DNA from: Arbacia lixula | Lineage: Eukaryota; Echinodermata; Echinoidea; Arbacioida; Arbaciidae | Length of the DNA: 64,000 bases | NCBI GenBank assembly: GCA_963669155.1 | Contig: OZ022581.1 | Location: 4,477,299-4,541,298, forward strand | Direction of reading: 5' to 3' | Part shown: positions 1-45,931 of the stretch, in pieces | Numbering within the stretch: the stretch's first letter is position 1 | Layout: every line of letters starts with the position of its first letter | Notes under the pieces: model-generated | The model's input: the letters and a program-made list of their open reading frames with translations, nothing else | Database searches by the model: none | Told to the model about the DNA's origin: nothing | Program-made: the position numbers and the translations under genes

Positions 1-180
1 AACAACCAATTCACCTTTATGTATGAAGCACAAAAGCCTGTCATTGTCCAAATTTTGACATATCTTACAAAGGAAAAAAGAACAGTCAAACGACTGACCG
101 GCTTCTTAATAGCTGGGACAATCACTAAACAGCCAATCATTCTTGCAACAATTGAGCGAGTTGCTACAATCACTGGTTGT
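1..180 (-). pseudogene. Decayed tandem copy of the TWSG1 3' end
   Basis: Bases 1-180 align as a direct copy of about 203-360, offset about 195-202 bp, sharing tcattgtcca, ctgaccggc and tcttgcaa/tcttgcca words. In the minus-strand frame equivalent to TWSG1 it reads ...CCKNDWLFSDCPSY then TAA, lining up with GKNKALCSECPND and stop. Similarity stops near 180, so only the last 19 or so codons and 3' flank were copied. It lacks the rest of the domain and is probably non-functional. Confidence 0.7.
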
Positions 181-301
181 GTGTGATGACTTTCACTGAA
201 TACAAACAACTCACCTTTGAAGGCAATAGCACAAATAGCTTGTCATTGTCCAAGTTTATAAAATTCTTACAAACGAAAAAAAAAGAAGACTGACCGGCGT
301 C

Positions 302-543
302 TTAATCGTTGGGACACTCGCTACACAGTGCTTTATTCTTGCCAAAGCTGAGGCAGGATCGGCCGATACACTCGCAGCAGCCCGTATGGAACCACCGATA
401 CTTGGCCGAGCCCATGTGCTGGCATGCGTTGGTGCATTTCTCCAGGCCGAGGCAGGTCTTGACGTAGGCCACCGTGCACATGTCCTCAGACAGGGTCTCG
501 TTCAGAGAGACGGCCGTTGTGCTCACTTTGGTGCTCAATGATA
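302..543 (-). CDS. TWSG1: TWSG1 last coding exon
   Basis: This exon follows acceptor ccctgcag and encodes the C-terminal cysteine domain (DMCTVAYVKTC through CSECPND), then a TAA stop. Its last roughly 20 codons plus 3' flank have a decayed direct copy at 1-180. Confidence 0.93.
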
Positions 544-2135
544 CTGCAGGGAAGAAGCGGCGGATGAAGCAGATTTATACAGATGGTTTCTTGGTCAATA
601 CTCGCTTTAAAATGCAAACAACATCTCAAATTTTAGGTTCCAAAACTCAAATTTCAAATTCAAATCACATCTTAAACTTCATATTCACTGTCAAATTGAA
701 ATAAAATTTGAAATCTCAAAATCACATTCAAATGAAATGTCAACTTCTAAACCTCAGGATCAAAATTCAAATGAAATCTCAAATCTAAAATTCACATTCA
801 AATCAAATTTCAAATCAAAAGTCAAATTGACTTTTGAAATTAAATTACAAATTAACTTGTAAAAATAAATGTCAAATAAGCTTTTCAAATTAAATTTTAA
901 ATTAACTTTTCAAAGTGAATTTCAAACTACTTTTTCAAATTTAATTTTAAATTAATTATTCAAATTCAATTTTAGATTAACTTTTCAAATAAAACTTCAA
1001 ATTCCAAATCCCAAGATTCCAATTGGACTGACCAGAAGTGCTCTCCACAGAGGGCTGTGGCACCAGCCCCAGGAGGCCCTCTAGATTGACCCCCTCCTCC
1101 TCAGGAGTGACCCTGTCTACAGTCCAGTGGCTCTCAGGCATGGGCTTGCCCTGGGTGAGGGCCCTGAAGAGGGAGTCCCCAGACTCGTGGCCCCCCTGCA
1201 GCTCCCCCACCGTGCTGTAGCTGGCCGCGTTGGTAGAGGACAGGTTGCGAGGCTTGCACATGTCTGTGGGGTGGAGAGCAGAGAGGAGCGCAATCACCAA
1301 ACTATTTTTTTCAAACAGCTTAAGGATTCCATTTCATTTGGACAAAACTTACACAATACGATTTGTCCTAGCTTACTGTACATATTTTTTTGAGATCAGA
1401 TTTCTCATCTTATCCCCTCTAGGTATTCCTCCATTCCTCCATCCATCATTTCATCCAATTACCTATCTATCAATTCATCCATCCATTCACTGATCTATCC
1501 ATCCATCCATCTATCCATCCAACTATTCATCCATCCACCTATCTATCTCACCCCTCCACACACCTCCAACCCTCCATCCATCTACCCCTGCTCCCAGTAC
1601 TTACTAACATATGCGCAGCACTCGCCCCAGTGGCCCCACAGCTCCCCAAGACACAGGTTGTGCAGCAAGGTGCATCCCTTCCCCTCCCGCCATCCATTCA
1701 CCCCCCTCCCCCCCCCCCCCCATTTCTCCATCCATCTACCCCTGCTACCAGTACTTACTAACGCATGCACAGCATTCGTCCCACAGCTCGGCCAGGCACA
1801 GGGTGCAGTTGAGACAATAGGTGCAGTTCTCCAGGTGTATCCCTCCCCCTCCCGCCATCCATTCGCGCCCCCCCCCCCCCCCCCCTATTCCTCCATCCCT
1901 GCTCCCAGTACTTACTAACGCATGCACAGCATTCGTCCCACAGCTCGGCCAGGCACAGGGTGCAGTTGAGACAGCAGGTGCAGTTCTCCAGGGTGCATCC
2001 ACAGGCCCCCATCAGCTGACACTTGCTCACCCTGGACACGCACTGGTTCTCATTGCAGGACTCAAAGAAGACCGTCACACCCACTGCATAGGCGATACCA
2101 GCCACCATCACAGCTATGAACACCGTGGTCCTCAT
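302..2135 (-). CDS. TWSG1: Twisted gastrulation BMP signalling modulator, three coding exons
   Basis: Secreted modulator of BMP signalling that in known family members binds BMPs and chordin outside the cell. Coding exons are 2135-1916, 1263-1033 and 543-302; their phases join (220+231+242 nt) to a 230-residue protein, close to the roughly 223 of vertebrate TWSG1. Residues 1 to about 24 are a hydrophobic signal peptide. A cysteine-rich N-terminal domain follows (about residues 27-76, including LAELWDECC), then a variable linker with SLFRALT, then a C-terminal cysteine-rich domain with the family signature SAKYRWFHTGCCECIG. N-glycosylation sequons are visible at N51, N57 and N80. The start has an A at -3. 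All junctions are GT-AG: donors at 1915 and 1032, acceptors ending at 1264 and 544. Parts of exon 1 and exon 3 have decayed tandem copies beside them. Identity is firm; the 5' UTR is inferred. Confidence 0.93.
640..1012. repeat. Degenerate AT-rich simple repeat in TWSG1 intron 2
   Basis: Irregular repeats of words such as caaattcaaat and aaattaactttt fill almost the whole intron between exons 2 and 3. No coding signal was seen. Confidence 0.7.
1033..1263 (-). CDS. TWSG1: TWSG1 second coding exon
   Basis: This exon lies between acceptor ccccacag and donor gtcagtcc and encodes 77 codons of linker, beginning MCKPRNLSS and containing SLFRALTQG. It starts by completing the codon split after exon 1 and ends in phase 1. 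Confidence 0.9.
1425..1600. repeat. Degenerate ATCC/CATC tetranucleotide repeat
   Basis: Tandem atccatcc-type repeats grade into the C-rich intron sequence that forms part of the duplicated TWSG1 units. Long C runs also occur near 1710 and 1870. Confidence 0.65.
1606..1840 (-). repeat. Two tandem partial copies of the TWSG1 exon 1 end inside intron 1-2
   Basis: The last part of exon 1 with its donor recurs at about 1840-1759 (reading ENCTYCLNCTLC then LAELWDECCACV, frame kept, donor gtaagtac kept) and at about 1661-1605 (reading GELWGHWGECCAYV, more diverged, donor kept). Donor positions 1915, 1758 and 1604 give periods of 157 and 154 bp. The copies lack an obvious 3' splice site, and reading through donor 1 shifts frame and stops at 1758. 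They are best read as decayed exon-edge duplications containing usable-looking 5' splice sites. Confidence 0.8.
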
Positions 2136-3451: not shown

Positions 3452-3485
3452 CTAAGTGAACCAGACTAGACATTCAGATTCTTCA

Positions 3486-4688: not shown

Positions 4689-5216
4689 TTAAAGACAGCC
4701 CGTCCCTTTTTCAGATCACCACAAAACCACCGAGACATTAGCAAAACATATAGAGAAATGTTAGCAAGATGTATATTCATAATTTGAAATTGATACTTAG
4801 TGTAAAATTCAAATAATGCACTTAAACAACGTCTGATTAATAGTCTTTACCTCAGGCTCTTAGCAGTTTGTGTTAAAATATCTGCTTTATTGATTAATCT
4901 GTTTATTAAATTATAAAACGCATTATGAAAAAAAAATATTCTAGAGAAGGAATCATCTCCAAAGTTTGGTAATTACTCATAAAATCAAGATTTCACACAT
5001 GCATAATAACCGCTTAGATACTGTAACAAAGACTAATACTTTTTTCGTAGTACAAAAAAAGTCGGTTTGAAATTTAACGGCTGAATTTTTTACATATACA
5101 GAAAGCTTCAACATGCTATATTCTTAGAAATGGTCTTGAAGCACACTTTCTTCAATTTGCGATCGTGATCGACGATTTCAAATTTTAAGCTTGCAAAAGG
5201 GACGGACAATCTTTAA
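4689..5216. mobile_element. TTAA-flanked piggyBac-like MITE (CCGTCCC family), copy 1
   Basis: TTAA flanks both ends (4689-4692 and 5213-5216), and the termini agacagcccgtccc and gggacggacaatct are inverted repeats. The roughly 520-bp body recurs in opposite orientation at 59424-59938, and the ends recur at 53404-54795. TTAA target use is characteristic of piggyBac; no transposase is encoded. Confidence 0.75.
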
Positions 5217-5470
5217 ATGGGGGTCCTAACTTACTGAGTCTACAGCTGTCTGGGGGGCCCCTTTTGATTGACTCCAGTGGTGACTACGGGGTCCCACCGC
5301 GGCCACCCAACGCTCACCATCAATCATCGGGCCCATTCATCTCACTCAGGAAAGGATATTCACAATTATTTGCCAAAATAAGGTGGATGAGCTCTGGCAG
5401 CCTGAGTCAGAGTAGCAGCGCAGCCAGGAAATAGGCATAGTCAAAAACATGAACGGCTTTCCGCCTTTAT

Positions 5471-8682: not shown

Positions 8683-9055
8683 TTAAAGGGGGTATACTGT
8701 ACTGGGAAGACAAAAAGGCCTTCAAAAGGTGATTGTGAGCAAGCTTCTTGCCAATGCTCTTAAATTCATGTATTGTCCAATTTAGAAACTTGCTGAAAGT
8801 TATTTGCCCTCATATGATCCACATTTTGAATAAATAGTCATTAAATCACAAATCCTCGAAATGTTCGGTCCCAACAATTTGAGGATTTGTGATTAAATCA
8901 CTAATTACTCCAAATGTGGATAATTTTAGGGCAAATAACTTCAAGCAAGTTTCTAAAATGGATAATACATGAATTTGAGACCATTGGCCAGAAGATTGCT
9001 CACGATCACCTTTTGAAGGCCGTTTTGTCTTCCCTGTACAGTATACTCCCTTTAA
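8683..9055. mobile_element. TTAA-flanked foldback element (near-perfect palindrome)
   Basis: The arms of roughly 180 bp begin aaagggggtatactgtac and end gtacagtatactcccttt, with a short centre near 8870. TTAA is present at both ends. The related tandem unit at about 9740 lacks the insertion, marking the empty site. Confidence 0.8.
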
Positions 9056-10475: not shown

Positions 10476-11000
10476 CACACAAAAGAAACAATATTTGAAA
10501 CATCCATCCATCCAACGTCTTCTATGTCTGCCTCTGTGTCTGGTTTGTGTTCTTGGTACCCACCTAGTTCTGTTATGTGTCCATCTGTTGTTGCATCTTG
10601 AAAGGTGGCCTACTCATCTCACTTTCTTTGCTTTTATTTCCTGTATTTAATATCCCTCATCTCTATTTTGTTTCTCAAATCCTCATTTCTGACCTTATCC
10701 CTTGTTGGATCTCCTTCCATAATCCTCTCCATTGCTCTGTTTTGTTACTCTAAGCTTCTTTTCTAATGCAAATGAGTTATAGAGGGTTAAACAAAACTCA
10801 CAGTATATTCACAAATAGTTAATTTCAAGTTAATGTCACTTAAAAGAGGAATTAACGCAAAAGAGCTTTACAGTATCTACATGTAATTGCACCAAATCAT
10901 GGATAAATACAAGCTGCATGATCAATCTCAGTGTGAAAGCTTTTGAACTGAACATTGCTGAGGTATGCCTGGCTGGCATGTCAACAACTATTATACTATA

Positions 11001-11167
11001 GTGCCATTCTCATTTGGCTTAAAAATCGCGAAGTTAGAAAAATCGCGAAGTTAGGGTGACAGTTGCCTAGCAACCGTACCAAAACCCGAGCGGTCCTATT
11101 GTCCTGGTCTCCTAACTTCGAGATTTTTCTAACTTCGCGATTTTTTAAAGCCCAATGAGAATGGCAC
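11001..11167. mobile_element. TA-flanked palindromic MITE (GTGCCATTCTCAT), copy 1
   Basis: The inverted ends gtgccattctcat and atgagaatggcac are flanked by TA on both sides. Each arm holds tandem atcgcgaagttag-like words, and the centre gttgcctagcaac is itself a hairpin. TA targets and lack of coding fit Tc1/mariner-type MITEs. Other copies are at 29467-29616 and 31452-31621. Confidence 0.85.
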
Positions 11168-12195
11168 TAATATTCCTCTTTCAGCTGCACAGGTGAAATA
11201 AAATTGGGAAAAAGACAGAGTGAAACAAGGAAACATTTTAGACCTATTAAACTCTGTAGTATGTACGGGCTTGAAGAGGAATAATTTGGGGAAAAGAACA
11301 GGGCAGAAAAAGGAAATATTCAGACCCCTCAAAGTCTGGACCAAATCTTAACAAGATCTTAATGACTTCCTCAAAGAGACTTAGGGGCGACTGACCTGTA
11401 AAAGGTTCACGTAACTCTGATCACACTCCATGTATTACGAGAGATTATGAGATACGTGTATACTCAAGAGAGGATTGTTCATTGTCAAGGTCAAGACTAT
11501 CAGTTCAGGAAGTATAAAACAAACCTTATAGTACAGCTAAGACTAAGATGATTTGCACAAAATAATATAAACATGTTGTAAACACGATTGTGTGGAACAA
11601 CATAAAATCTCATCTAAGATACCACGTACATTGTACTTTATGTAAGGAGGTAGTAGGTACTTTGATGTAGAGTTAAAGTTTGATATCAAAGTGCCCTTAT
11701 ATGTGTGAATTAAGCACTCCTCAGATATCTTTTAAAAAACATATACTACATGAACTATAGTTCATAGCAAACATGACATGTTCTGCTAAGCGATACAAGA
11801 ATTGCAAATCACATGCCAAAGCGCGATGCAGAAGCCTCAACATTCATGGGTACTTTGTGGATGCAGTTAAATGATAACATTCGCTTACCGCAATATTGCA
11901 GTATTTTGCAAGGATAGACTGCATTATTTGAGTGACTTCTGTTCATACTGTATATATGCAGTTAGCAAACTTGCCGCAAATGTTGCTCTTAGGTGGCATA
12001 TATGAACAGGGTTTTAGTGGATAAAGGTTTGATGACAATGTGTCGGCAGATCATATATTTCTGTTTGGACGACATACTCTCGCTACCTACCGCTGCAACA
12101 TGATTCAGGGGATTTTACAGGAAAGCGCTGTCTGTTCCAATGAGGTTGTCCAGTCGCTGATCAGCTGATGATTGGTCTACATGTTCTTAGCCTGA

Positions 12196-12785
12196 AGTCC
12201 AGGCTTTTAATGGGCATTTTTTATCATAAATGTTTCAATTCTATTTTGCAGGTCTCGGTCCTCTACATCTCCAGTGTATTTTTGTTGTGGAAAGAAGACA
12301 GATGACGTGAAACTAAGCCAACCAAGAATATTCTCCAGAAAAAATAAAAGTCTGACTTTCAAAGCATTTATATTTAAATATGATGTCATATCATAAATGT
12401 TTCAAGTCTATTTTGAACATGAGTCCATTATATTCTACAGTGAATCTCTGTTGTGGAAAGAAAACGGGTGACATAAAAAACAAAGGGTATGATTCAAGAG
12501 AAGTAAAAGTCCAACTGTGCTGCAGTTGAAACTCTGTGGGAAATTTCCGACTCAATTTACCGGTAAGCATTTGACAGCTTGATTTTGTCATCTGTCGTAT
12601 ATTGCATGATGAAATATGATGTCACAACATATTTTGCACATGAGTCCAAACACATTTTACAGCATACCTTTGATGTGGAGAGAAGACAGGTAACATAAAA
12701 ACGAAGGATATTTTTCAGAGAAAGTGAAAGTCCAACTGTGCTGCGGTTAAAACTCTGTGGGAAATTTCTGACTCCAAAAGCCTTT
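12196..12785. repeat. Three degenerate tandem units of about 200 bp
   Basis: The units start near 12220, 12393 and 12625. They share ttgtggaaagaagaca/aaaac, catgagtcca, gtaaaagtccaactgtgctg and aactctgtgggaaattt. They are well diverged, and no gene is seen in them. Confidence 0.75.
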
Positions 12786-28243: not shown

Positions 28244-28467
28244 CACTCCAGCTCAAAGGAATTGGCATAGGGAAAGGGAAAGGGAAGAGCGGGAAGGAGC
28301 CGCAGTTGTAAACCGCAGTATATTTTGTCCAGTTCAGCATGAAACACGATGCTTTAGCCTAAAAAGCATGTTTTATGCTAAACTGGACAAAATATACCGT
28401 GGTTTAAAACTGCGGCTCCTTCCCTTTCCCTTTCCCTAAAGTATGCCAATCCCTTTGAACTGTAGTG
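28244..28467. mobile_element. TA-flanked palindromic MITE (CACTACAGCTC), copy 2
   Basis: Same arms and length as the 19.2-kb copy, with TA on both sides. The ends are cactccagctcaaagg and ttgaactgtagtg. Confidence 0.85.
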
Positions 28468-28799
28468 TATATGCCCCATTATGCCTTTCTTTTTACAACT
28501 CTATATTTCTCAAACTTTTCAATACAATGTACTTATCACAGATACCTACACCAAAAGGTACTAATGTTGTGCAGATGATTTTGAAATATTATTGTCTTTC
28601 TTTAAAAGAAGCCGTACTGCCTGTATACATTATGCATGTTAAACATGTAAACAAATGGTTTGTTTTAAGTTATTGTTCTCGGGCATGTGTCATTTTGCTC
28701 TGTGGCTCTTCATGAATAAAGTTGAAGTGTTGTTTACATACAATTACATATTCGTGTGAAAGATTGTTTTTGTTCATTTATTTTGCTGAGATGGACGAC

Positions 28800-29400: not shown

Positions 29401-29466
29401 TTTGGTGGTCACTTCAGCCATCAGTACAAGGTGACAAAAGAGTTATGGCAGAAGAAGTATACAGTA

Positions 29467-29616
29467 GTGCCATTCTCATTGGGCTTAAACAATCACGAAA
29501 TTAGAAAAATCGCGAAGTTAGGTTGAAATTTGCCTAGCAACCGTACCAAAAGCCAAATGGTCCTATTGTCCCTGTCCCCTAACTTCGCAATTTTTAGAGC
29601 CCAATGAGAATGGCAC
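29467..29616. mobile_element. GTGCCATTCTCAT MITE, copy 2
   Basis: Same termini and TA flanks as the 11.0-kb element. The right arm has one atcgcgaagttag unit fewer. Confidence 0.85.
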
Positions 29617-31451
29617 TACATGTAGTATCTTGTTTGCTCACCTAGTGTTTCGATCCTGTCTATATCTATCCTACCATTTCGTTCATTTCTTCCCTCCTAT
29701 CCTTCCATTCCGTAAAGGGTTGGAGTTGCTACTATCATCTTGGCCATGCGCACACAGGGTGATATAAATACAAACTATACACAGAAAACATCTTCAGATT
29801 GTTGGTTGAGTATGATCAAGATGATTTATTTGGTGTCAAAGTAGCAAAAAGAAACTCAAACATTACTGCTACATAAAATCTGCATGCATGGTTGGTTGAT
29901 GGGACGTTGAAAATAAATGTAAAAACAAACAACTGCATGCAAAAGGAAAGGCACAAATCAATATATATATTTATATTTACATGTTCAGTTAGACATTTTG
30001 TTAGCTCTCAAGATAGTATAGTTTTAAAATAGTCACAAAAACACAAATGCATTCGTTTCTGTTCGTGGCTCACTATATAAACATCTTAAGATGTTTTGGT
30101 TTGCATAAGAAATCAAGTACTGGAATGTTCAAAATGATACAAATATCTAAAAAAAAAAAACCTTTCCAATTAACAGATCTACATATCATACATAAAGTGG
30201 TATAAGTCCATGTAACCCATGTAACACATGGACTGAATTTTAGATTCTGATACATTGAGATTACTTGGTGTAGCACTGAGGTATTTTTTTTTTTGTATCA
30301 AACTCATTTGACTTACAGTGCTTTATGTTTTCTCCTAAACATGGCTTCTCTACTGCGTAACCCTGTTTCTTCTTTTGTTATTGCAGTAAGATATTCCCAT
30401 CAGTAGCAACTGTTATTGAGCAAAAAGGTCAAAAACATGATTTAAATCACTCATCAATATTCATATATCCTTGATAACCATCATGACAATCATTAAGAAA
30501 AAGGTCTATAGCATGGTTTAAATAATGCACTCATCAATATTCACACTTAAAAACACAATAAATATCCCAGTCATATCAAGGTTGAAGATCAAAATGACCA
30601 CCTCCCCCATTGATGCAACTTACCACACGTAATACCCACAATTCCCATAAACCTATAGGAGGGGGAGGGGAGAGGAAGGGGGTCATTTTGACCCCCCTGT
30701 ATAAAATCCATGACTGCACTTAACTGCAGCACATCGTGACACATCTTTTCATGACTTTTTCTTTTGAGTCCAATTTAAGAAAAAAATAGACACTACGTTC
30801 AAAGGTTATGCAACATCATATATGTTAATCGCATGTCAGATCAAAATCGGACAAAAAAGGAGATCTCACATAGGTTTGTTCCCCCAGAAAATTATGCAGC
30901 TGCGCTCTTAACATGTTCCTTTCTCTCCATGCAAAATGTTGCGACGATACAACCTCCCGTGGCCGAGATATTGGGGGGTCAATATGACCTCCCCCCCTGT
31001 CAAAACCTGCTCTCAAAAAGCCCTGCCAGAAACTAAGGGTACATATTTTTCTGAACTCCATAATAATCAGCCCTGTAGGTAACATCACAAACTGTGAGTG
31101 AGGTTCAGAGTACTGTTCCTAAGAGGTGAGCTCTGAGAAAAGCGGAAAGCTGTTGGCTTGATGATGTCAGCTGTTTGACAGATTGTCGTCAGGAGGAAAC
31201 GGGGTGGTTCAAATGTAAACTACGGATAGTTGAAGCTATAACTCTGATCCCTGTAGAATTTCATGACACTAGACCCTATCTTTAAATGTGGCGAATACCC
31301 TGCAATAGTTTCATGTCCCATGACTTCTCTTCCAAAAAGTCACTGCCACTTTCTGCTCTTGTAAATACATTAAGCCAATTTGCTTTTTCACGGTGCAATT
31401 TCTTCTATTGCAACATGCCAGACATGAGTGCTCATGAAAATTACAACAATA

Positions 31452-31621
31452 GTGGCATTCTCATTGGGCTTAAAAAAATCATGATGTTAGAAAAATCGCG
31501 AAGTTAGGGTGAAAATTGCCTATCAACTGTACCAAAAGCCGAATGGTCCCATTGTCCCTATCCCCTAACTTCGCGATTTTTCTAACTTCGCAATTTTTTT
31601 AAAGCCCAATGAGAATGGCAC
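31452..31621. mobile_element. GTGCCATTCTCAT MITE, copy 3
   Basis: Same structure as the 11.0-kb copy. TA on the left, TT on the right where the target copy has mutated. Confidence 0.83.
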
Positions 31622-32819
31622 TTTTATGCTGTTGTTTCCTTATTCAATGGGGAAGGACAAACACATTATGTGAACAGTTTTATACAAATTGTGCATGAAT
31701 TAACAAAGGTGAAATTTGTAGGTTAAAACAAGGCCACACGTACTCGAAACCACTGCAGTGTGAATCAGCATATTGCTTGTAAACTTGTGTACGCTCATCT
31801 CATGACACTGCAATGAGGAAATATTTTTTCAGGCATGTATACAAATGTAAAAATTGGAAGAATGAATGACACTGTGCATAGATCTGATTGATTGTTCATT
31901 GAAAGCTTGAGGCAGGTATTGTACAGAAATGAATAATCACATTGTGTGATAGTTATATTGATCAATGATTATTCTGCTTTACCTTGCCAAAGAAGGAGTC
32001 ATTCATGACTTTTCATTGCACCCAGCATGCAGACAAAATCTGTCAAATTAGTTTTTATCTTATTATAAGATATTCAATCTATTAAACATGATGTGGTGTT
32101 GGATTGGTACCAATGCAAATGACAGACAAAATCTTGCTCATTTATAAGAAGAGCCACTTTTGCTACATGCGTCCTTTTGTCAATGTAGCACAGCACGATT
32201 GCAAACAGTGTATATATACTACATATACAGATAACAACACCCTCTTACAGATAACACCCTTGTACATACAGAAAAAACTGCATTCTCTACTGATGCCCCA
32301 AAATTCATTTGACAGCTGTGAATCTTGGCATCTTCTACCCTGCATATTTCTTAAGTGGCTTATAGGAATGAAATGTATCGCAAGAATCTTCTGACGTGAC
32401 ACTAAATGGTCCAAGGTGAATCCTAGAAACATCTCACTTCTACAGTTAGGAGCACTACTTGCACTACTCCCAATGCAATCCCCAGGCAGTAATTAGCAGC
32501 CTGCAGACAAATACTCACATGTGACCCTGTTTCATGACACCACTTGCGTCTCGTTAGATGAAACCACAGCTGTATGTAGTCTGGAGTCTGGAGACATTTA
32601 CACTATTTTGGGCCATCCTAAGTCTCCTATATCAGACTTATCGTCAATCTGACATGAAGGAAACATAGCATTCTTGGCCATAAAATATTCTGTAAAACAA
32701 AGCTCATTCGCAAGGCTCTTTCACTGTAATCATTACCCAAAACAGACTTAAAAAAGTGTTTATAGTAAAAGAAAGTATGAGCGAAGTGTACTTATGAATA
32801 TCATGCCCACTCAATGCCT

Positions 32820-33597: not shown

Positions 33598-36500
33598 CTG
33601 CAGGGAGGGAGGGAGAAGGAAGCGAACATTATTATAGGGTACCATTGCAGCACTCAACTGCTCAGTAAACTTGCGTTCACATGAGGCACTAAAGTACTCA
33701 GTAAAGGTGCGTTCACATGAGGCACTAAACTGCTCAGTAAAGGTCCATTCACATGAGGCACTAAACTGCTCAGTAAAGGTGCATTCACATGAGGCACTAA
33801 ACTGCTCAGTAAAGGTGCATTCACATGAGGCACTAAACTGCTCAGTAAAGGTGCATTCACTGAGGCACTAAACTGCTCAGTAAAGGTGCATTCACATGAG
33901 GCACTTAACTGCTCAGTAAATGTGCATTCACATGAGGCAGTAAACTGCTCAGTGAAGGTGCATTCACATGAGGCACTAAACTGCTCAGTAAAGGTGCATT
34001 CACATGAGGCACTTAACTGCTCAGTAAAGGTGCATTCACATGAGGCACTTAACTGCTCAGTATAGGTGCAATTACACGAGGCACTAAATGCTCAGTAAAG
34101 GTGGGTTCAGATAAATGTGGTTTGCCATTGCAACTTACAATTCATGTTAGTGAATTGCCACTACAAAACAACAGAAGAAATAGCTACATAATAACAGAGT
34201 TTTAAATATCAAGGCATCCAACAGTCCTTTTTAGGATTACCACAACTTCTAGAAAGAAATAAATCCCTCCCTTTCTCACATGGTGTTCCGTAATTTTCTA
34301 GTATAATACTAAGGTAGTCCATCACTTTGCTTTTCTATGAATGGTTCCGTATAATTGGTGTGATCAATGACACATGGCAGCGGAAAAATCCATCCAGTGT
34401 GAACACACTTTCTTTATGACGTTCTTGGAATTCAGACAATGTTTTGTCTGTGAACTACCTCTCATATCACACAAACACATGAGGACAATCAAACAGACAA
34501 ATAAAAAGTAATGTAGTGTAACAGGAATTTGCCCATATCTAGGAGAAGAATGAAGATATTTTTATCACAATTGTAAATAGGAATATGGAACGTTTTCTGC
34601 TCTATTGATAGTAGGATATCAGTAAGTTGAACTTCCAAGAAATAAAAAGACAACAATACATACTTCCTATTCATATTAAAACTAGTAGGCAGTACTGCTA
34701 TGAACAAATATCCTTGCTGTGAAGACATACAATATGCGGTACATATTTGCAAATGTATAACTCCAATCATAATTTATGGCAGTACATGCTTAAAGCATCT
34801 CTATCTATATGCTACCACTGTAATGAACATGAATTTGTCATGCATTCCAACTTCTCATACAATATATAAAACCTGTATAAATAACATGTACCTATGCAAA
34901 TGTCTAAGTACTATGAAGGACTGAAACTACTACTACTACTTCTACTATAATTACCACTAATACTATTATCCTACTCTTCGAACAACAATGGTGGTACTAC
35001 TACTACTACTACTACCATTTCCGCTATTGCTACAGACTATTAAGCAAATAATCAACGTTGGTGAGAGTGATGGGACAAACTATCACTTCCGAGGTGATCT
35101 GGATGTAGCTATCTTTCCAAAGCGCAGCTGAGGAAAGAAAGCGTATGCATACATTCAGATCGCCGAGGAAGTGATAGTTCGTCTTATTGCCTGAAACCAA
35201 AAGTTGATTATTTGCTTTATATTCCACATCTGAAACAAACTATACCAAAAATGACAATTTGACGTACAAAAGTAATGTTTGCTTCTCTACCTAACCCTGA
35301 GCCGCTGCCATGGGGAACACGCATTAGGAGCGTGTTAGGACACATTAGTAGGAGCTACTGTTAGTCAATTGATAGTCTGAGTGTAACACACTTTTTATTT
35401 TGCGCGTAATCAAAATATTGATCATGCTTTAGGATTGTGAGGAGTGAAGGGATCAACTAAACCAAAAAGTACTATCACCTAGAGTGTAACGAACTTTTCT
35501 TCTCAGGTGATCAGATGGGCAAAGCTACGCTTTATCTCGTGATCAACTCTTGACCAATCCTATAGCAACATTCTTAGTACGTGGAATATAATGATAAATA
35601 TCACTGCAAATGTGTCACACAAATACATAGTCTCAAGACCCCCTTGTAATACCTATGCTCATGACTTGACTCTAGTAGCAAAGAATGAAGACACCAAAAG
35701 ACATACCAGGAAGATTCACTGGTGCCTCCGATGAAGGCGTTGTTTACTGAATAAGTGGTAATTTCCATGGTGGTTTTATTTTCGTGAATTTTGCGAATCA
35801 ATCATTGCAAAAATTTCCCCGTTGGTTCATGTCCATTCATACTAATGAAAGCACTTCTAAAGTCGTGAAAAATAGCACTCGCAAAATGGGAGATTTATTC
35901 CCAAATTGCGAAAATATTGATGTTTACAGTATTTGATTTATATCATTTATTGACACCTTATGATGGGCCAAGCGGGAAACAAAATGTTAACTTTCCCAAA
36001 GATTCTTTCAGATGTATAAAGACAGAGGAGCTATTCAATTCTTTGTAATTTTCTGCCACTGTTTGAGCAAACTAGTGGAAATACAACTTAGAGTTGTGGG
36101 GGGAAAAATATTGTTTTAGAAATAGCGAGTCGTAAGGTGCCAAGCCAGAAAAAGGAACATCTGGACATTCTTCCAAAACCTGGATAAATACTTTTTGATA
36201 ACAGTTCTTGGCCCTCTTACAACATAGAAATGTGAAATCAGAGACCAGGGTCCCATTGCATAAAACTTACCATTTATGGTAACTCTGTCACCAATGGTAA
36301 CTACCATGGTAACACAACTCAACAGCCAATCGAATTCAAGGTTTCCATAGAAGTTGCCATTGATAGCGAAGTTACCATCAATGGTAAGTTTTATGCAACA
36401 GGACCCAGATAGTACTTCTTTTCAGAGGAAGTTCATCCTCTACTAGAAATATCATTGGTTGCATAGAGTGCTCTTTACTATAAATACAAGAGCTGAATTA

Positions 36501-39500
36501 TTTTAATTAGGGTTATGATAAAAAAAGGTGTATATGACTCCACTCTTAATCATGACTATACTTGAACTTACACACCGATATGTTGAGTATTAGTCAATGT
36601 ATCCACACATCAAATACTTTGAACCTCAAAAATATACTGTGACACTGCATGTGCAAACACACAATTGGTTTACTGGTGGGTTTGAAAATATGCAAGTTAA
36701 TATGGCTTAGGTTTATATGTAGATATATGCTGATACCAGCAGTTACATGAAAATGAAGTTTATTACTTTACATCCTGCAACCATCTTGAACAGATACTCT
36801 TAAAGATATATTTGTTATCACACAATCATACATGTACCTTGTATACATGATCACTAGTCGAGCTGATATTCATTGCAAATGGCTTGATGATGTGTTACGT
36901 GATGAAAAGTCATCGTGGAGCTCACCAACTCCAAAACTTGGATTGCATTAACAGGAACAGTTCCTAACATTTAACCCTCTCATTACTGTTGGCATGGAGA
37001 TGTGTAGTAACTCAATGGAGTCTTCAATGCCTCGCAATGAGAGGATTAATATGATTTGAACATACATATGTAATATCCAGGGTGAATAATATGGGTGCTC
37101 TATCACACACATCAAAGTTAGTGCTTTACATGTGTGTTGTAAAATCTTGTACTATACCGGTACATACAGTGTTAAGACATCAACCAAATAACTTACCCAT
37201 CAAAGGCTGTGCATGCAATAGGGAGAGGTTAAAGGTGGGGAATATAGTAGGCCATGATACACACATTCATTGATTCAATAAAATAATAAACATCAGAACA
37301 AGATAATCCCTGACCAGCATGCAATATAATAGAATATAATATAAATGTACACTTGTGCACATTTTTTTTTTAATTGTGATTTTGAAGAAAAAAATGGATA
37401 TAATGTTTGCGCAAAAGAAAACATTTTGCAAATTGGCATTTCTTTCATTTGAATGATTTCTAGTTTTTGTTAGGCATGGTTTGACAAACAAAAATATATC
37501 ACAGTTCAAGCCAAAGATTCATTCCTTTAAACAACAAAATAATATCTCTAGCTAGAAATAAAAAAATAAGAAAGAAAGCTGTGTCAATTCAATGTTGCAC
37601 CAACACTGATTCCAAGGAATCCACGTGATCATTCATTCACTGATTTTAGAACTTTCATTTGCAATCACTTCGGTATTAATTTTAAGCATGAAACAAAAAC
37701 ATTCAGACAATTTGTTATTGTTACCAATTCAATCTAGAATAAGATAATGCCATCAGTCCTTTTTTTTTTGATGGAGGCATACAAATACAAGAATGTAAAT
37801 TACAGAATGCTTCATAGTTTAAAAAATAATATTTTCTTTTTCTACATTACAATAATTCACAAGAGACCAGTTCGTAATTACACCATGGCCGGACTATAGA
37901 CTGCTGACTGAGATTTTTTCATGAAGCTGTCTTGGATGATGCATTTTTACAGTATGCCCAGAACAACAATAGAAGCAGGTGCACATGGTGGAATGTTCTT
38001 TCACTACCTTCTCAGAGCTGAATAGCTGTTGCCATATAATTAATTGAAATGTGGTCAACTATCTAATGAATTCCCATTTTACTCTGTGAGTAGTGAAATT
38101 GACCTGAGGTCATGTTCTATCAGCAAAAATCTGCTCATGTGCGAATTGCAATTACGATGTGGCTTATTGCATAAATATGTAAAAATAACCTATTCAATAC
38201 ATACACGGTTAACATTTATAAATCAATAAAACAATTAATTTAAAAAGATAGCAATTACATCTTACCAGTACTTAAAATGTTGTGGCAGTCAAGCTTTTAG
38301 ACTAAGTCAAAATTCTCTAGTATAGTATATTTTGGCAAATGTAATCAACTTTCAAAATCATTTGTATATTTTTGAAATGTCAACTACACTTGCAAAACAT
38401 TGCACAGAAATGCGTACATTGGGAAAGATTTTTATACTTAGACAAATGCTTTGCACATTAGCAAAGCTGCATAGAAGACAAGCACACCTTGATCTTTCAT
38501 ATGTCAAATGCACGATTTATATGAGTCGTGCGCATAAATATTTTAAGATTCTTGGGATGTGATTTTTTACACCACGACAGATGCCTTGTTTACTATCAAA
38601 GCTGCAAAACAGAAATATGTGTAATTTTCTTGCACACCCAGAGCCTTGCCAAAAAGGGAGACTTGACCCAAAAGGAAAAGACCCCTCTATCTGCAGAGAA
38701 GGAAAACTTACCATTTGGATTCTTGATGTTGCTCAGGAATGGTATGTTCTTCTTGCCAACCAGGCATGGTTTCTGTGCAGTACTGTCAGGTAGAATGGAC
38801 AAAGAGGACGGGCCAATCAGAGCGACATATTACAATTCTCCCTATTGCATATAGCTGATATCAAGCGATAACAATTTGCGATACCGATATCTGATCGATT
38901 GCTTGTGGGACGTATACTTCCCGTTTTGCGGCACACCATATTCTGGTATAGTAGACAAACATTCAAAACGCACAGAACTTGTCATTTCGAACCTCGTAAA
39001 ACTCATAATACCTCTGCTTACACAAGCAAACATGGATAGACCTGATGACCAATTTCGGAGAATGTCTGTGTCGTGATTAAAGGACTTTCATAGTGGAAGA
39101 AATGTTACTCATCCATGTATATTTTCCCAAATTTAGCCATTTAGCCATTAGCGGCCAGGCATTGGGCCGCTTCGCAGTAGAATTTGATTAATCAAATGAA
39201 AAGTTACAGATTGGAAAATAACTTTATTATTCGTGATATTATAGCTAGATTTTGATCCACTAAATAGTATGACTTGGGAGTTCAATGTACAGAAAGCACA
39301 CAGAAAGAAAGCATGCATTCAGAACCGTAAGTTAAAGGTAAACAAATTAGAGCGCCACAGGCAGTCAGATTCGGAGAGCACGATTATGGCATGATTCTGC
39401 AGTCACATGGGCCTATGACTGGAGATGTGATGTCACCTTCTTGCACATATCCAGTGACCGGGTTCTGCTGTTCAGCCAGTCGCAGAGTCAAACAGCTGAT

Positions 39501-42500
39501 CAGGGCCCCGTAACATAAAGGTTTGCGATTAATCGCAAATTTGATAGACAAATTCTGATTGGTTACTGGTCAGTCTATTGAACAAAAAGTGCATGCAACA
39601 ATGATGTTGATTGGTCATTGTCAGTTTACGATTGATCGCAAACCTTTATGTTACGGGGCCCAGATTGTGTTGTTTGTGGTGGCCTGAAGACTCCTTAATT
39701 AATTCCTTAATGAACTACAGGAACCACTGGGGCTCTTTAATCATTCTGAGGGCTTTGTTTGAATTATGGGGGTGGGGGTGGGGTGGGGTTGGGGGTGGGG
39801 GGGGTGGGAGCATTAATCCCGACCTTTGTGTAATTTGTTAATTGACTATTTCACAGCGGGAATGATCTCTAGGCAACAGAAACTAAATGTTTGACAACGA
39901 ATGCATTCTAACAGGGGCTGTTTAGTTATTTTCAGGGGTTCCTTTTAGCATTGTGGGGGGCTGAATTCCCCAAGCCTCTGTGTAATTTGTGAATTGACTT
40001 ACTCTATGGCAGGAAGGCCAATGTGCTGATAGTGCTTCCAAGCCTCTAGGAATGCTGGGGACAGCTTGTAGTTCTGGGTGTAGTACTTCAACACCTTAAA
40101 CAGGTACGGGTCCTGCCTACAACTGTACAACCACAAAAGACGGACACGGAGAGAGCAAAGTTAATGAAAAACATCATTTCTGTTTTGACAACAGATTTTA
40201 GGCATACACACAGTAATAGTAAGCATAGTGTGCTCCATCCTGTATATGATTGAAAAACAAGTAAAAAAAAAATCTTGGAACCAGAGAGATTTGAACCTGC
40301 AATCTACTGCTTACTGGGCATCGACTTAACCACGCATGCTATTTCTAGTTCATGGATCAAGACATAATCACATGGAAATAAATACTTAAATAAATTAATT
40401 AATTCATAAAAGACTCTCATTCAATCTGTCTTATTAACATGCCATAAGGACCATTCGGCTAGATTTTAGTGAAAGGTCTTTATGGGGTAATTTCGATTTT
40501 GATAATTTCTTTTTAGGCAAACACCCAGTAGTAAGTATAGCGAGCTCCATCCTGTAAATGAATGAAAAACAAGTTAGAAACATTTCATTTCCCAGCACAT
40601 CCAATACATTGATTTCAATTATGAATAAAGAAGCACTCTACTACATATGTTTATATTTCGGTCTTCTTTCATGACATTTAAGCTGAAATTCATGCTAATG
40701 TGTGGACGAGAGCAGATTTGTTATAGATGTGGTCATTGGGTGCAGATGACAATTTTCTCTTTTACAAAATACTGCACTGGTCTCTATTAGAAGAATTGAT
40801 AATGTCACATCAGACTTCCTGTTTTGAAAAATATGTCTGCCACAAAAAGTGATGAATTAGTAAAGAAACAAGCAGAACTAACAAGTTGCAACAAGTACAA
40901 GGACCAGTCTATTTCTGAGTTGCGATTGATCCGAGTTGATCACAAGTGCTATCCACAATCTTTACAGACTTTATGATTGATATCAATCACAAGTAAAGTT
41001 GCGATCCATTGCAACTCTTTGTAAATCAGCGCCCAGGTTCTTCTGAAAATAATATAGAAGTATAATGTGTGAAATAGCCATTGCTTCCATAGAAGACCCC
41101 AGAAACATCTCCCATTTGCATCTTGCCTGTTGAGCAGCTGCCTCTCTGCCTTGTGGTTGAAGCTGAGGTAACCCAGGGCGATGGCTGCCGACCCCCTCAC
41201 TTGTTCGTTTTCAGCCAGCATCAGGCGGCAGAGCACATCCACTGCCTTGATGGATACCACGGCTGCCGGCACGCCTAGGAGTAGGCAAAACCAGGGGGGA
41301 AAAGTCAATGTTTATTCACCGGGCTACATACTTTTAAAACCTGATGTCCTGAAACAAACATACTCAACATTTTTTCTCTTCTTTTCTCTGTATAACTGCT
41401 TTGTGACAAGTTCACAACTCTCATCACCACCTTCTCCTTCTACCTCCATTTCATCCCATTCATTTTTGGTTTAAAAGACCCAAATCTGAAGCTAAAAATG
41501 GTCTTTGTTATTCCCTTAGTATGTAAGAAAACAAATATTAAAATCTCTTGATAATAACTGTCTTATGGTGTAATTTTCAAATCAATATTGTAATGTATTC
41601 ATAATGATTGGCAGCTCAAAGCTAAGACTGAGCATCAAAGAACAGAAAACCTCTTACCCGCCCTCGTGTGGGCAAGCCTGGCTATGCACTCAGCCGTTAG
41701 AGCCAGGATGAGAGGATTGCGGGACTGCTCCAGCAGGTCGATGAGGAGCTTGATGCCGATGGCCGACGTTGTGGCCTGGTCCTCGTCAGGGATGATGCGG
41801 GCCAGGATCACCACCTAGCAACAGGGGTGGAATAGTACTGATATCGATAATCATCATATTGATAATGATGATAATGTTAATTATAAGGATAATAACATTC
41901 ACTGCAACAATGAGACACAGCAGTCGTACTAATGAAAGTCACACAAATAGTGCGCAACAAAACACTATGATCTCAAGTTTAATGATCATGATAGTAATTG
42001 ATTATGTTTATGCCTTCTCATAACACTTTTTGAGTAAACAGACGGCTCAAAGCACTTTAGATTGATTCTTTTCTGATGAGATATTGGCTACTAGCTAACA
42101 TATAAACATATGAAAACCTTGATATATCATATAAATGCCCTGATCTTGAATTTTATTTTTTAAGAAGACATATCTTCACAGACCTGAAATACAGCATTAC
42201 ACCTGAAGAACTCATCGTTGAACTCCAAGAAGAAGACGAAGGAGTAGTAGCAGATGTACAAATAGATGGAAAGACCCTAATACATCTTATAAATGACCCA
42301 ATCTTGAACAGGTATTTAAAAAGGGGCATATTTGATAGATATGAAAAACAGCATTGCACCTAAAGAACTTGTCATTGGACTTCCAGAAGGAAAGGAAAGA
42401 GAGGTAGCAGATGTGCTGCAAATAGATAAAAAGACCTTGATATATGACATAAATGCCTTTATCTTAATCAGTTGAAAGGAGTATACTTGGTGCAACCATT

Positions 42501-44955
42501 AAATCTTTGAGCGCCACTGAAGCAATTTTGCACGATTATACACAAATCCCATAGAGCAGCGCTTTGTCTGACAAACAAAGGCTTAAAGAGTGTATTTGTT
42601 CACAGACCTGGAAGGCAGCATTACACCTGAAGAACTCATCGTTGGACTCCAGGAAAGGGACAAAGGAGTGGTAGCGGATCCCGCCAGACTCTGCAATCTC
42701 CTTCTGCTGCTGCACGTTGTTGTAGGCAAAAGCTGCGAGGGCGCTGCCCGCAAGCAACCGGACCAGGTTGTCGGTGGAGTGCAGACGGCGCAGGATGTGG
42801 ATGTAATCAAAGTCCACATTCTCAGTGATGTCTGTCATGACTTCCTGGTTACCTACAGGTGCCAAAAATATAGAAATGTGCTGTTGTCTGTGATTTTGTT
42901 TACTGCTTGTAAAGTAATGGCAGTATTTTAATCTAATTGGCTATAATTAACAACATCTATCATTATGAAGCATATAAGAAGTGGTGACAAAATTATAAAT
43001 TCAAGGAAGAATTCTGTAGATTAATTTGACTTATTGACCATAATACCAATATAAATGGATTTTATCACTAAATAAAATCTTGGCCAATGTTATGCAAAAT
43101 AAAGAGATATGGTCATAAAAATGTTATTTTTAAAAAAACAAATAGTCTTGAGATTATAGTATCTTGTTTAAACTGACCACTAAATATTAAATATTCATTG
43201 AAACCTTGCATGTGTAGACCGTTATTGAACATACACACTGTCACCACAACCCTAAATAATACAGTGTTGCATAATCACTGTGACTATATAATACGATGGC
43301 ATGATTATACATGTGACATACCAATACTGCAATAGCCTAGAGTCAGCGCAGACTCCACTCTGACTAGCTCGTTCCTGGAGTGTACCATCAATGCCACCAG
43401 GTATCTGATGCCTCTAGCTCCTAGGATGGTTGCTTGATTCTTGATATGGGGTATGAAGCCGATGCCTATGCAGAGATGCCTTAGGGCCCGGATCGTGCTC
43501 AGCACTATGTGCTCCTTGGGCGAGCGTAGGAGCCTGACCAACGGTTGGACGCCATTGGCGTTGGCGATGGTGTCCTGTTTGTTGAGCGCCCCCTGCGCGA
43601 GTACAGCGAGCCCCTCAGCGCCGATGTAGTGCAGGATGTCGTTCTCCGCCTGGGCATTGAGGAAGTCGATGAGGAGGTTGACGCCGATCATGCTGGCCAT
43701 GGAGCGCCGCTCCTCGATGTCCTCCCCAGCCAGGGCCCAGAGGGCGCTAGCCGTGCAGACGTGGACGTTAGGCGTGCCGCTGCGCTTGAGCAGCTGCATG
43801 AGCGGGATAACCCCGCCCTCCTCTAGGATGACTTTCTGGGTATGGGGGTTGTCCTGGGCCAGCATGTGGATGGCACTGATAGCACTCAGCTGGAGCTCGT
43901 TGTGTTTGATGTTTGCCAGGGCGATCAGAGCCGATGCCCCGCCCTCATCCACAAAAATATTCTGGTTGTTCTCGTCCTTTCGTACGACGTTACTCACCGC
44001 CCGAGTTAGCGCGAGCAGGAGAGCTTTGGAAGTCCTGTTTTCAAAGAGTCCGACCACTGCGGTTAACGCACCCGTTGCAGTGCCGATCATCTTCTGGTAT
44101 TCTGGGTTAGCACTAGCGATCTGGGATAGTGTCTCTGTGGTTTGGACAAGAATTTCCATGTCGTTGCTCGTCTGCCAGAGTTTCACAAGAATTGCTACTG
44201 CACCATTTTGAACAAAGGAATCAACATACTCCCTAACCATCGCCAGGTGACATAAGATACAGGCCGATGCATAGATTATCTCCCTATCTGCAGAAGACAG
44301 CATCTTCAGGGCAGTGGGGATCCCCTCAGCCTTCACAATCTGCTCCTTCACAATCTTCGCTTCGATGATGTTCAGAAGTATGGTGAACGCATACAGCTTG
44401 GCCTTATCGCAGATCACAGACTTGATCACTTTCATCAGGACCGGGACCCCGTTGTTCTTCACGACGGGATCCCAGTACGGATTCAAACCGTCTTCCGAAG
44501 GCTTGGTGAGAAGAACCAGCATCTTGCCCGCCGCCTCCGCCTCGTCATCCATATTGGAGCCCATGAATTTCATCATCTTGGGCCAGACGGGCAGGTCCTT
44601 GTGGTCATACTTGATGAAGAAGTGCAGGATCTCAATGTACTGCTTCATCGTGGCTATCTCTATGGGCCCCTGGTTCTGGGTGTTCTGGTAGCGGAGGTCA
44701 GCTCCCAGCCTGGTCAGGCACTCCACGGTGTCCAGCTTCCCGCTGTCGACCGCCAGCAGCAGCGGGGTCATGAGCCGGTCGTCGTTGGTAGGGAACTCCA
44801 GCTGGTCTTCGCTGGCCCCGACAAACTTCTCGATGGACATGATGTAGCCATGGTGGGCGGCGTAGTGGATGTGACTCCAACCGTTCTCATCCAGGTCGTT
44901 CATGATTGCCCGCTCCTTGGCAAACTCGTCCTTCTCAGTGTCTTGCCTGGTGGAT
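33272..44955 (-). CDS. ANKAR: Ankyrin and armadillo repeat-containing protein (3' seven exons)
   Basis: Exons 44955-43322, 42852-42608, 41814-41658, 41274-41127, 40116-40003, 38782-38712 and 33597-33272 join in phase to 897 codons and a TGA stop. The first exon opens with ankyrin repeats (NGWSHIHYAAHHGY, TPLLLAVDSGKLDTVECL). It continues into armadillo repeats with helices such as LYAFTILLNIIEAK, ASACILCHLAMVREY and ASALWALAGEDIEERR. The C-terminus is Ser/Thr-rich and probably disordered (SSGELSGLSHPPSSP). Order and content match vertebrate ANKAR, a scaffold of uncertain function; the family member in humans is about 1434 residues, so the N-terminal third is missing or lies in exons not recognised. 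The first exon starts in the middle of a codon, so an upstream exon must exist. All introns are GT-AG except one GC-AG. Confidence 0.87.
33660..34115. repeat. 36-bp minisatellite, about 12 units
   Basis: The unit is gtgcattcacatgaggcact then aaactgctcagtaaag, in about 12 tandem copies with few substitutions; one unit lacks 2 bp. Because 36 is divisible by 3, it leaves open frames on both strands. It lies in the last ANKAR intron close to the 3' splice site. Confidence 0.95.
34925..35015 (+). repeat. Imperfect CTA/TAC trinucleotide repeats
   Basis: Two short blocks, ctactactactacttctac and tactactactactactacc, separated by diverged sequence. Confidence 0.7.
35038..35221. mobile_element. Foldback MITE
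   Basis: The inverted arms start taagcaaataatcaac and end gttgattatttgctttat. They include aaactatcacttcc and its inverse ggaagtgatagttc. The centre is about 30 bp. The likely TA-type target is not certain. Confidence 0.7.
36249..36405. mobile_element. PIF/Harbinger-like MITE, 157 bp, copy 2
   Basis: Inverted ends ggtcccattgcataaaactt and aagttttatgcaacaggacc, target duplication cag at 36246-36248 and 36406-36408. Same length and target as the 39.5-kb element. CWG targets are typical of PIF/Harbinger. Confidence 0.78.
36971..37049. mobile_element. 79-bp TTAA palindromic mini-element
   Basis: TTAA then ccctctcattac at the left, and gcaatgagaggat with TTAA at the right. A similar remnant may be present near 4280-4360. 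Confidence 0.55.
38712..38782 (-). CDS. ANKAR: ANKAR short exon
   Basis: A 71-nt exon between acceptor ctacctgacag and donor gtaagtttt. Reads TAQKPCLVGKKNIPFLSNIK. Its phases (2 in, 1 out) are exactly those needed to join 40003 to 33597, which is the main support. Confidence 0.85.
39350..39690. repeat. Dispersed repeat (GATTCTGCAGTCGCAA family), copy 2, interrupted
   Basis: The left part, to cagctgatca, and the right part, gattgtgttgtttgtggtgg, are contiguous in the 33.1-kb copy (gactgatcggattatgttgt). Here they are split by the MITE at 39504-39660. Confidence 0.7.
39504..39660. mobile_element. PIF/Harbinger-like MITE, 157 bp, copy 1
   Basis: Inverted ends ggccccgtaacataaaggtt and aacctttatgttacggggcc, target duplication cag on both sides. 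The older repeat copy at 33.1 kb serves as the empty site. Confidence 0.82.
39729..39870 (-). repeat. Decayed tandem copy of an ANKAR 5' splice-site region
   Basis: About 39729-39870 aligns with 39914 to about 40022 (ggggct.tttagttatt, tgtgtaatttgt.aattgact, then exon end). The offset is 185 bp on one side of a G-rich expansion and 152 bp on the other. The copied donor is ruined. Confidence 0.65.
40003..40116 (-). CDS. ANKAR: ANKAR exon
   Basis: Acceptor cagttgtag, donor gtaagtcaa. Reads QDPYLFKVLKYYTQNYK through YQHIGLPAI. The donor side has a decayed tandem copy at about 39730-39865. Confidence 0.9.
40197..40400 (-). mobile_element. tRNA-derived SINE, minus strand
   Basis: On the minus strand a B box (gcaggttcaaatc) and the tail gatggagcacactatgctta then actgtgtgtatgcctaaa match the 9.4-kb SINE. 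A separate tail fragment is at 40512-40575. Confidence 0.7.
40512..40575 (-). mobile_element. SINE tail fragment
   Basis: Only the 3' tail (caggatggagctcgctatac then ttactactgggtgtttgcc) is present, in the same orientation as the SINE 110 bp away. Confidence 0.65.
41127..41274 (-). CDS. ANKAR: ANKAR exon with GC donor
   Basis: Acceptor actcctag. Reads VPAAVVSIKAVDVLCRLML to AERQLLNR. The 5' splice site is AACAG then gcaaga, the standard GC-AG consensus. Reading on gives a foreign tail, while splicing to 40116 restores RQDPYLFKV. Confidence 0.88.
41658..41814 (-). CDS. ANKAR: ANKAR exon
   Basis: Acceptor ttgctag, donor gtaagagg. Reads VVILARIIPDEDQATTSAIG through IARLAHTRA. It joins its neighbours in phases 0 and 1. 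Confidence 0.92.
42115..42460 (-). repeat. Two tandem decayed copies of an ANKAR exon end
   Basis: The last roughly 75 bp of the 42852-42608 exon plus about 80 bp of following intron recur with exon-copy ends at 42341 and 42184 (157 bp apart). The copy nearer 42184 keeps frame (CYYSFVFFLEFNDEFFRCN, then AVFQ) and donor gtctgtgaa. The other keeps frame but has lost the GT. Intron words ataaatg..c..atcttgaa recur at 42131, 42289 and 42449. Confidence 0.85.
42499..42586. mobile_element. Short TTAA mini-element in ANKAR intron
   Basis: TTAA at both ends; atctttgagcgccac at the left and gacaaacaaaggct at the right resemble the 32.8-kb palindrome. It interrupts the first unit of the exon-edge tandem repeat. 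Confidence 0.5.
42608..42852 (-). CDS. ANKAR: ANKAR exon, armadillo repeats
   Basis: Acceptor acctgtag, donor gtctgtgaa. Reads NQEVMTDITENVDFDYI through FFRCNAAFQ. Its last 75 bp recur twice in the next intron. Confidence 0.92.
43322..44955 (-). CDS. ANKAR: ANKAR large exon, ankyrin plus armadillo repeats
   Basis: A 1634-nt exon between acceptor cctctgcag and donor gtatgtcac. It begins with the last base of a split codon, reads STRQDTEKDEFAKE, and ends in phase 1 after TLGYCSI. About three ankyrin repeats are followed by roughly ten armadillo units. Confidence 0.92.
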
Positions 44956-45931
44956 CTGCAGAGGAATGCAGCCAAAATACGGATCATAATTGTTCTCTTC
45001 TTAATAGATAATTCCAATTTGGGTTTGGGTCAACAAAACAGTGTGATATTCATAAATTCGTAAAAGTGTAATTGTTCTTTTTTTAAATTGCAATTGTTAG
45101 AGACAGTGGTCAACAACAATATAACATGTTTTACTATGGTTTAATCTCTTAATTTACCTACATGCATGTTAATTGGACATCCCATAATGACCCTCTTCTT
45201 TCAGGTCAATTATCTCAATGATACTGTGGAGCAAGTACTTGTATCTTGCTACAAGTTATTGTGTAACAATGATATTGCCTGGTAAAACTAAGTCAGGATG
45301 AGAAACTGTTGCTCATTTCTGGCATGTCACAAAAAAGGAACCAATCTGATATGAGAAAAAGTAGGAGGGATATGAAGTGTCATCCATGTATACAGGGGGA
45401 GGTGGGCTCAGAGAGTAATGCATTTACAATTAGTGCAACATGATCATAATTAGTTCAGAGCAAAATATAGTGGAATGGATGTAGGGGATCAGCAATTGTC
45501 AGATATTTCAATCATTTTTAGAGTGCACTCCCTTATCAATCATGTATTGTCGAAACAATCTTTATCATCAAGTGTTTAATGGAAAGAGTTCCACATGCAC
45601 CCCCACTATTTTTTTTTAATAGCCTACTGTCTAAAAGAGGGCGATTCTTTTGATGGGGGTTGAGTAAAAAATGGGGCAAGGAATTTTGGGGGGTTAAAAG
45701 TGTGAAAGAAATGAAAAATAAGGCATGTTATACAAGGCATTTATTGAATGTGTTAATTCTTTAATGTCGTAGATGGCGTTATCATGATTACTCAGATAGC
45801 CGGTAAATGTAAGTTTAACCCTAAACCTAACCTTAACCCTAATTTTATCACTTCCCCCAACTAATTATGCTATATTATGATTATATACATAAAATTATAT
45901 ATATTATACATATTTTAAAAAATTATTCAGT

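Follow-up and report, generated by a model that had tools for sequence, protein, structure and literature searches.

Short local tandem duplications are spread through the genome of Arbacia lixula, and the copies of exon ends described here probably belong to a neutral, genome-wide background of such events (about 60–450 bp) that fall approximately at random relative to exon edges. The window analysed is a stretch of 64,000 nucleotides on contig C6 of a 607 Mb genome assembled in 590 contigs; the exon ends in it were read off the sequence. A gapped self-comparison (offsets of 40–600 bp, simple repeats masked, a score of at least 46 for loci) revealed 11 tandem clusters in the window. The best scores of the copies at TWSG1 exon 1, the TWSG1 3' end, ANKAR exon B and the PIGO acceptor are 63–274, while block-wise dinucleotide shuffling of the window, repeated 20 times, gives a top score of 35. 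The copies at TWSG1, ANKAR exon B, PIGO and 12.2 kb belong to these clusters. Among the others are a TE-like pair, a microsatellite region and a minisatellite (33650–34112) with 12.7 copies of a 36-bp unit, an exact 22-mer of which is found six times in the genome, always within this array.

The same criteria were applied to a comparison sample of 200 kb, which was systematic rather than random and consisted of 20 segments of 10 kb taken at 5.0 Mb of contigs C1–C20 (at 6.0 Mb for C6). It contains 28 tandem loci, or 0.14 per kb, compared with 0.17 per kb for the 11 clusters of the window, and the maximum score in shuffles of the sample is 32. A sequence-only reading of the window had attributed the copies to a high rate of tandem duplication in this genome rather than to selection on any one gene. 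The similar density in the sample and the window supports a genome-wide process, but the word "high" lacks a yardstick, the density being compared inside this genome. The ages of the copies vary, with best identities of about 72–100%. A young-looking array with a 157-bp unit and copies that are 99.7% identical can be noted about 170 bp past a kinase exon match (L040, 1046–1521).

Pfam matches support two minus-strand genes, TWSG1 (Tsg_N and Tsg domains) and one for an ankyrin-armadillo protein, as well as a plus-strand gene for a PP2C phosphatase. The frame 1758–2147, which contains TWSG1 exon 1, matches PF23782 (E 7.5e-16), and the frame 302–574 at the 3' end of the gene matches PF04668 (E 3.5e-27). 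For the PIGO frame, only a sub-threshold phosphodiesterase match was obtained (E 0.00018, 21.7 bits, with a cut-off of 23). ANKAR, for the ankyrin-armadillo protein, and PIGO are the names given in the sequence-only reading, and they go beyond the Pfam evidence. A search of Rfam at the gathering threshold gave no match. The features under consideration are the following:

2..342, minus strand: 3' end of TWSG1 with the last codons, stop and 3' flank (202–342) and a downstream copy (2–146); self-comparison
1572..2000, minus strand: 3' end of TWSG1 exon 1, donor and G-rich/GGAT intron start, three times in tandem; self-comparison
1916..2134, minus strand: TWSG1 coding exon 1 (Tsg_N domain), which bears the first copy; Pfam
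12222..12774, no strand assigned: array of three copies in which no exon was recognised; offsets of 167 and 221, plus a weak one of 388
39823..39999, minus strand: weak copy, at 152 bp, of the start of the intron that follows ANKAR exon D, the copy without a donor; self-comparison
42113..42679, minus strand: 3' end of ANKAR exon B and donor, original at 42599–42679 and copies at 42271–42471 and 42113–42311 (158-bp unit); self-comparison
42489..42595, minus strand: dispersed repeat element within the first ANKAR unit; own-genome search
55062..55476, minus strand: PIGO acceptor and exon start (55062–55157), an upstream intronic copy (55253–55350) and a weak 240-bp intronic pair; self-comparison

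The three copies at TWSG1 exon 1, which the sequence-only reading had described as a 157/154-bp tandem, were recovered with a score above the shuffles. Their offsets are 154–158 bp and their identities 81–89%. All three donors read GTTA/GTAAGT and follow positions 1916, 1759 and 1605, so that they are spaced by 157 and 154 bp; poly-C runs are located within the array. When the unit was compared with the rest of the genome, the matches were limited to G-rich/GGAT pieces in three places, and none of the scored matches is another copy of the exon. A paralogue as the source of the odd third copy was rejected, since these matches hold no second TWSG exon. The copy of about 200 bp reported at the 3' end of TWSG1 is also a real duplication (2–146 versus 202–342, offset 196–200, 74% identity); however, the edge that it covers is the stop codon with the 3' flank and not a splice site.

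In ANKAR, the tail of exon B is present three times; the donor is lost in the middle copy and retained in the last one. Three aligned pairs were found: 42113–42311 with 42271–42471 (offset 158–160, 72%), 42175–42255 with 42599–42679 (offset 424, 86%) and 42349–42412 with 42616–42679 (offset 267, 78%). The spacing of 266–267 bp between the first and second copies, rather than 158 bp, would be explained by the insertion of the dispersed element of about 100 bp. With this unit as query, 40 of the 105 candidates from the own genome were scored; there were 39 additional partial matches, each of them within query positions 266–372, and apart from the inserted element, no piece of the unit matches elsewhere among the 40 scored candidates. 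A dispersed repeat family was rejected as the source of the TWSG1 and ANKAR copies, since among the scored matches the TWSG1 unit has only its G-rich/GGAT pieces elsewhere and the ANKAR unit only its inserted element. Two ANKAR donors had been claimed as duplicated. The 158-bp duplication at exon B is confirmed, whereas that at exon D is weak: it consists of a single 25-bp anchor (39823–39847 versus 39975–39999, offset 152, score 40), which begins just within the intron, and the donor is gone from the copy. The exon-D copy includes a G/C-rich tract. The ANKAR exon ending at about 41126 (minus strand) has an apparent GC-AG donor (CAG/GCAAGA). No viral-contig relatives of ANKAR were found.

PIGO is the mirror image of the donor cases, as its acceptor and exon start are copied upstream. 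The copies had been given as 191–240 bp apart in a claim covering positions 1–45017, a range beyond which this locus lies. The 191-bp pair is clear (55062–55157 versus 55253–55350, offset 191–193, 73%), while the 240-bp intronic pair is weak (55154–55241 versus 55394–55476, offset 240, 70%, a score of just 41). One copy of an element of about 520 bp starts about 15 bp past the donor of PIGO exon 1; the two copies in the window (59423–59939 and 4696–5217) are inverted relative to each other and 93% identical. At 61664–64000 on the plus strand there is a 779-aa open frame of LINE type with reverse transcriptase and endonuclease matches, which runs off the window.

Two arrays without exons had also been proposed. 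The one at 12.2 kb is real, with offsets of 167 and 221 bp. The one at 8.6 kb is not a tandem array: 8683–9055 is a 373-bp inverted repeat (87%), and the direct pair 8493–8613/9242–9359 lies 749 bp apart. Inverted repeats of 160–375 bp that are 71–88% self-complementary and MITE-like are numerous elsewhere in the window and fall into two or more families, each with multiple members. They are located at 10999–11169, 31448–31625 and 29458–29618 (the last of these entered as related to the first family), at 19156–19390 and 28242–28469, and, together with 8683–9055, at 35035–35224, 36248–36406 and 39499–39665.

In each of the splice-edge cases (TWSG1, ANKAR and PIGO), one complete exon is left and the extra copies are intronic. 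This arrangement suggests a simple course of events. Background duplications would land more or less randomly relative to exon edges. If a unit includes the 3' end of an exon and its donor, the copy adjoining the rest of the exon would stay functional, and the downstream copy would turn intronic; a unit spanning an acceptor would give the mirror image. The protein would be unaltered, and therefore the extra copy would drift and decay. The duplications themselves may be caused by replication slippage or template switching, with unequal exchange after two copies exist. What we infer here is that the copies are neutral, which splice site is used and how the duplications arise at the molecular level. 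The same anatomy of edge copies recurs at L013 (two donors), at the kinases L050 and L066 and at the TSP1 exon of L047, and the ANKAR array later acquired a dispersed repeat; both are consistent with this course. No coding constraint on the copies was revealed by codon-position counts (p 0.04–0.70, sign inconsistent), from which the TWSG1 copy 3 versus copy 2 row was left out because its phase is doubtful.

The proposed enrichment of such duplications at exon edges is observed inside the window and not clearly outside it. In the window, four of nine non-satellite loci hold a coding-exon edge, where random placement predicts 0.86 (p 0.005); if splice edges only are counted, three of nine do so (p 0.03). 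Three of twelve loci (the minisatellite, the microsatellite region and the TE-like pair) were excluded from this test; if satellites and the TE pair are kept, the counts are 4/12 (p 0.02) and, for splice edges, 3/12 (p 0.06). Some of the edge positions entered in this test were off by a few bases; with a slack of five bases, five of the nine loci hold an edge (p 0.001). All of these values are post hoc, as the window was chosen because of the edge copies. Simulation gave half-exon copies a detection advantage of about 1.3–1.4-fold. Detection bias as the whole cause was rejected, since this advantage is smaller than the observed excess, and chance together with the choice of the window likely accounts for the remainder. 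The fact that the excess exceeds the simulated bias still counts against pure randomness.

For the comparison sample, exons were predicted ab initio with a predictor trained on the genes of the window. It overlapped 11 of 14 exons of held-out genes, often with one end wrong, and at threshold 15 it produced one false exon when run on shuffled sequence totalling 100 kb. At TWSG1 exon 1, the predictor picked the copied donor at 1759. Among the 38 exons predicted in the 200 kb, an edge is held by 4 of 26 loci versus 2.3 expected (p 0.20), two large satellites of the 28 loci being omitted; at the stricter threshold of 20, the count is 3 of 26 versus 1.1 (p 0.09). In none of the 26 loci does an aligned copy lie entirely inside a predicted exon. 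The 132 matches of a whole-genome Pfam search for protein kinases supplied a second set of 40 exon loci with 80 edges, chosen by hand and blind to their flanks. Here, 3 of 16 tandem loci hold an edge versus 5.5 expected, with none in the first 20 kinase loci. Thus, there is no clear edge excess outside the window.

An apparent difference between the two kinds of splice edge would not be expected from pure randomness. Outside the window, edge-spanning loci were found at 6 of about 67 donors and at 1 of about 68 acceptors (p 0.06). These denominators are approximate (67 = 27 + 40 and 68 = 28 + 40) and come in part from predicted exons; five kinase loci were delimited by the ends of HMM matches, and a few terminal exons were treated as two-edged. 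By self-comparison, the donor cases are L008, L013 (twice), L020, L050 and L066, and the acceptor case is L067, which is weak (28 bp, score 46). L050 is a kinase (Pfam E 7e-25). The L013 exons are, as we presume from reading them, HSP90/TRAP1-like; one gave a sub-threshold HATPase match in Pfam, and the other no match, as was the case for L008 and L020. At L008 (736–1165), a short-period array starts from the predicted donor, and its repeats carry a motif around GTAAGT or GTGAGT, which gives a donor-like row. At L047 (362–742, minus strand; a Pfam TSP1_ADAMTS match above its cut-off), the tail of a TSP1 exon and its donor are copied, along with GGAT and poly-G, about 164 bp downstream, which is the anatomy of TWSG1 exon 1; this locus was found through the GGAT/poly-G tract common to it and TWSG1 and was excluded from the counts.

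One might accordingly suppose that duplication or its retention is biased towards donors. An extra donor downstream would be ignored and thus harmless, whereas an extra acceptor upstream would create a false exon, so that duplicated acceptors would be purged as makers of aberrant exons, and many introns would begin with tandem decoy donors. The copied donor is indeed intact in TWSG1 (2/2), ANKAR B (1/2), both L013 cases, L050 and L047, and the donor motif lies inside the repeat of L008. On the other hand, the skew does not reach significance, also with the window included (8/79 donors versus 2/79 acceptors, p 0.10). Two of the six donor cases share one 10-kb stretch and probably one gene, the L008 array takes in just a few exon bases, the copy at L020 has lost the donor, and the aligned copy at the kinase L066 ends one base before the edge. 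We consider this bias unlikely, although it is the most plausible of the alternatives. A distinctly lower probability is assigned to the stalling of replication forks at G-runs or GGAT microsatellites just past the donor, followed by template switching back into the exon. The donor, GGAT and poly-G do lie together within the unit in TWSG1 exon 1 and in the TSP1 exon of L047, and the ANKAR D copy has its G/C-rich tract. However, L047 was found via the shared tract, and L048, found likewise, shows no tandem copy beside its tract. Nor is there a clear link of G/C runs with tandem loci: runs of at least 8 bases occur within 50 bp of 9 of 54 loci versus 5.1 expected (p 0.06) and inside 5 of 54 versus 4.0 (p 0.38), with p values of 0.05–0.47 over all settings.

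Tandem duplication over exon edges is already published as a route of intron gain. The review PMC3443670, in the portion consulted, presents it as a mechanism demonstrated in vivo; the intron of a potato RdRp gene arose by duplication across an intron–exon boundary according to the consulted text of PMC4974935, and that of PMC2891723 explains some Drosophila intron positions by tandem duplication. The likeness to the cases of the latter two sources, as far as those texts go, is a short direct duplication with exon sequence and a splice site, and the potato unit crosses an intron–exon boundary as the PIGO unit does (PMC4974935). The sequence-only reading had seen in the present copies such a route to new introns or exons. 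In contrast to the published cases, the extra copies here sit inside existing introns and indicate no new intron, and the units mostly cross donors. In TWSG1 and ANKAR, the additional donors lie at distances of 157, 311 and 424 bp downstream, no distance being divisible by 3, and the edge excess outside the window is not clear. We regard the origin of new introns or alternative exons as very improbable here. Tandem and mutually exclusive exons (PMC6071210, as described in the part consulted) resemble these loci in the local tandem copying of an exon with adjoining intron, but each unit here takes in an incomplete exon and just one of the two splice sites. Mutually exclusive or duplicated exons were rejected, as the copies comprise a 3' part with the donor or an acceptor with a 5' part and not whole exons. 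An assembly artefact, namely uncollapsed haplotypes or mis-joined repeats, is the least credible explanation: the poly-C runs of the TWSG1 array are hard to sequence, but real history is evident from the divergence of the copies (about 12–28%), from the existence of three-fold arrays and from the dispersed element that was inserted. In a limited search of titles and the beginnings of abstracts, nothing on point was found for short tandem duplications of nucleosome length, for exon–intron boundary duplications yielding alternative splice sites or for intronic duplications in echinoderms.

Minisatellites and other local short duplications have broad periods, variable copy numbers and decaying copies. 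The loci of the neutral background preferred here are alike in period breadth, copy-number variation and decay, a minority of them including exon ends by position. Their periods were pooled over 45 loci, 11 from the window, 28 from the sample and 6 from the first 20 kinase loci, with satellites and one TE pair included; the second kinase batch (L049–L068) was kept out of this pool, and L047–L048 entered no count. The pooled periods extend from 62 to 446 bp: 16 are at 60–100 bp, 7 at 100–150, 12 at 150–200, 3 at 200–300 and 7 at 300–600. The fullest bin begins at 154 bp at all four tested widths, but its p values are 0.25–0.71. Outside the window, 7 of 34 loci have a period of 150–200 bp versus 4.2 expected (p 0.12). 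The 152–162 bp bin holds 4 of these 34 (p 0.014); this bin was picked post hoc, and the p value for any bin of similar width is 0.28–0.52. For the window periods alone (9 loci, hand-entered), the any-bin p value is 0.01 over 70–600 bp and 0.10 over 70–250 bp. With 12 of 45 loci at 150–200 bp and no significant peak, the proposed relation of the unit to nucleosome length is not supported.

An eye-catching cluster of copied exon ends thus becomes part of a measured background of about one detectable short tandem locus per 6–7 kb, in which about 5% of the sampled exon edges (7 of about 135) are touched by tandem copies. There is also a small chance that, as in 6 of about 67 cases outside the window, about 9% of exon donors in this genome have behind them a tandem duplicate of the exon tail or 5' splice site region, several-fold more than acceptors (1 of about 68) have ahead of them, and that many introns start with near-identical competing donors. 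If this donor bias were true, it would offer a natural experiment on the way in which the spliceosome chooses the first among identical 5' splice sites and on the reason why acceptor duplications are purged; if it held genome-wide, one could test how position governs 5' splice-site choice and what duplicated acceptors cost under selection.
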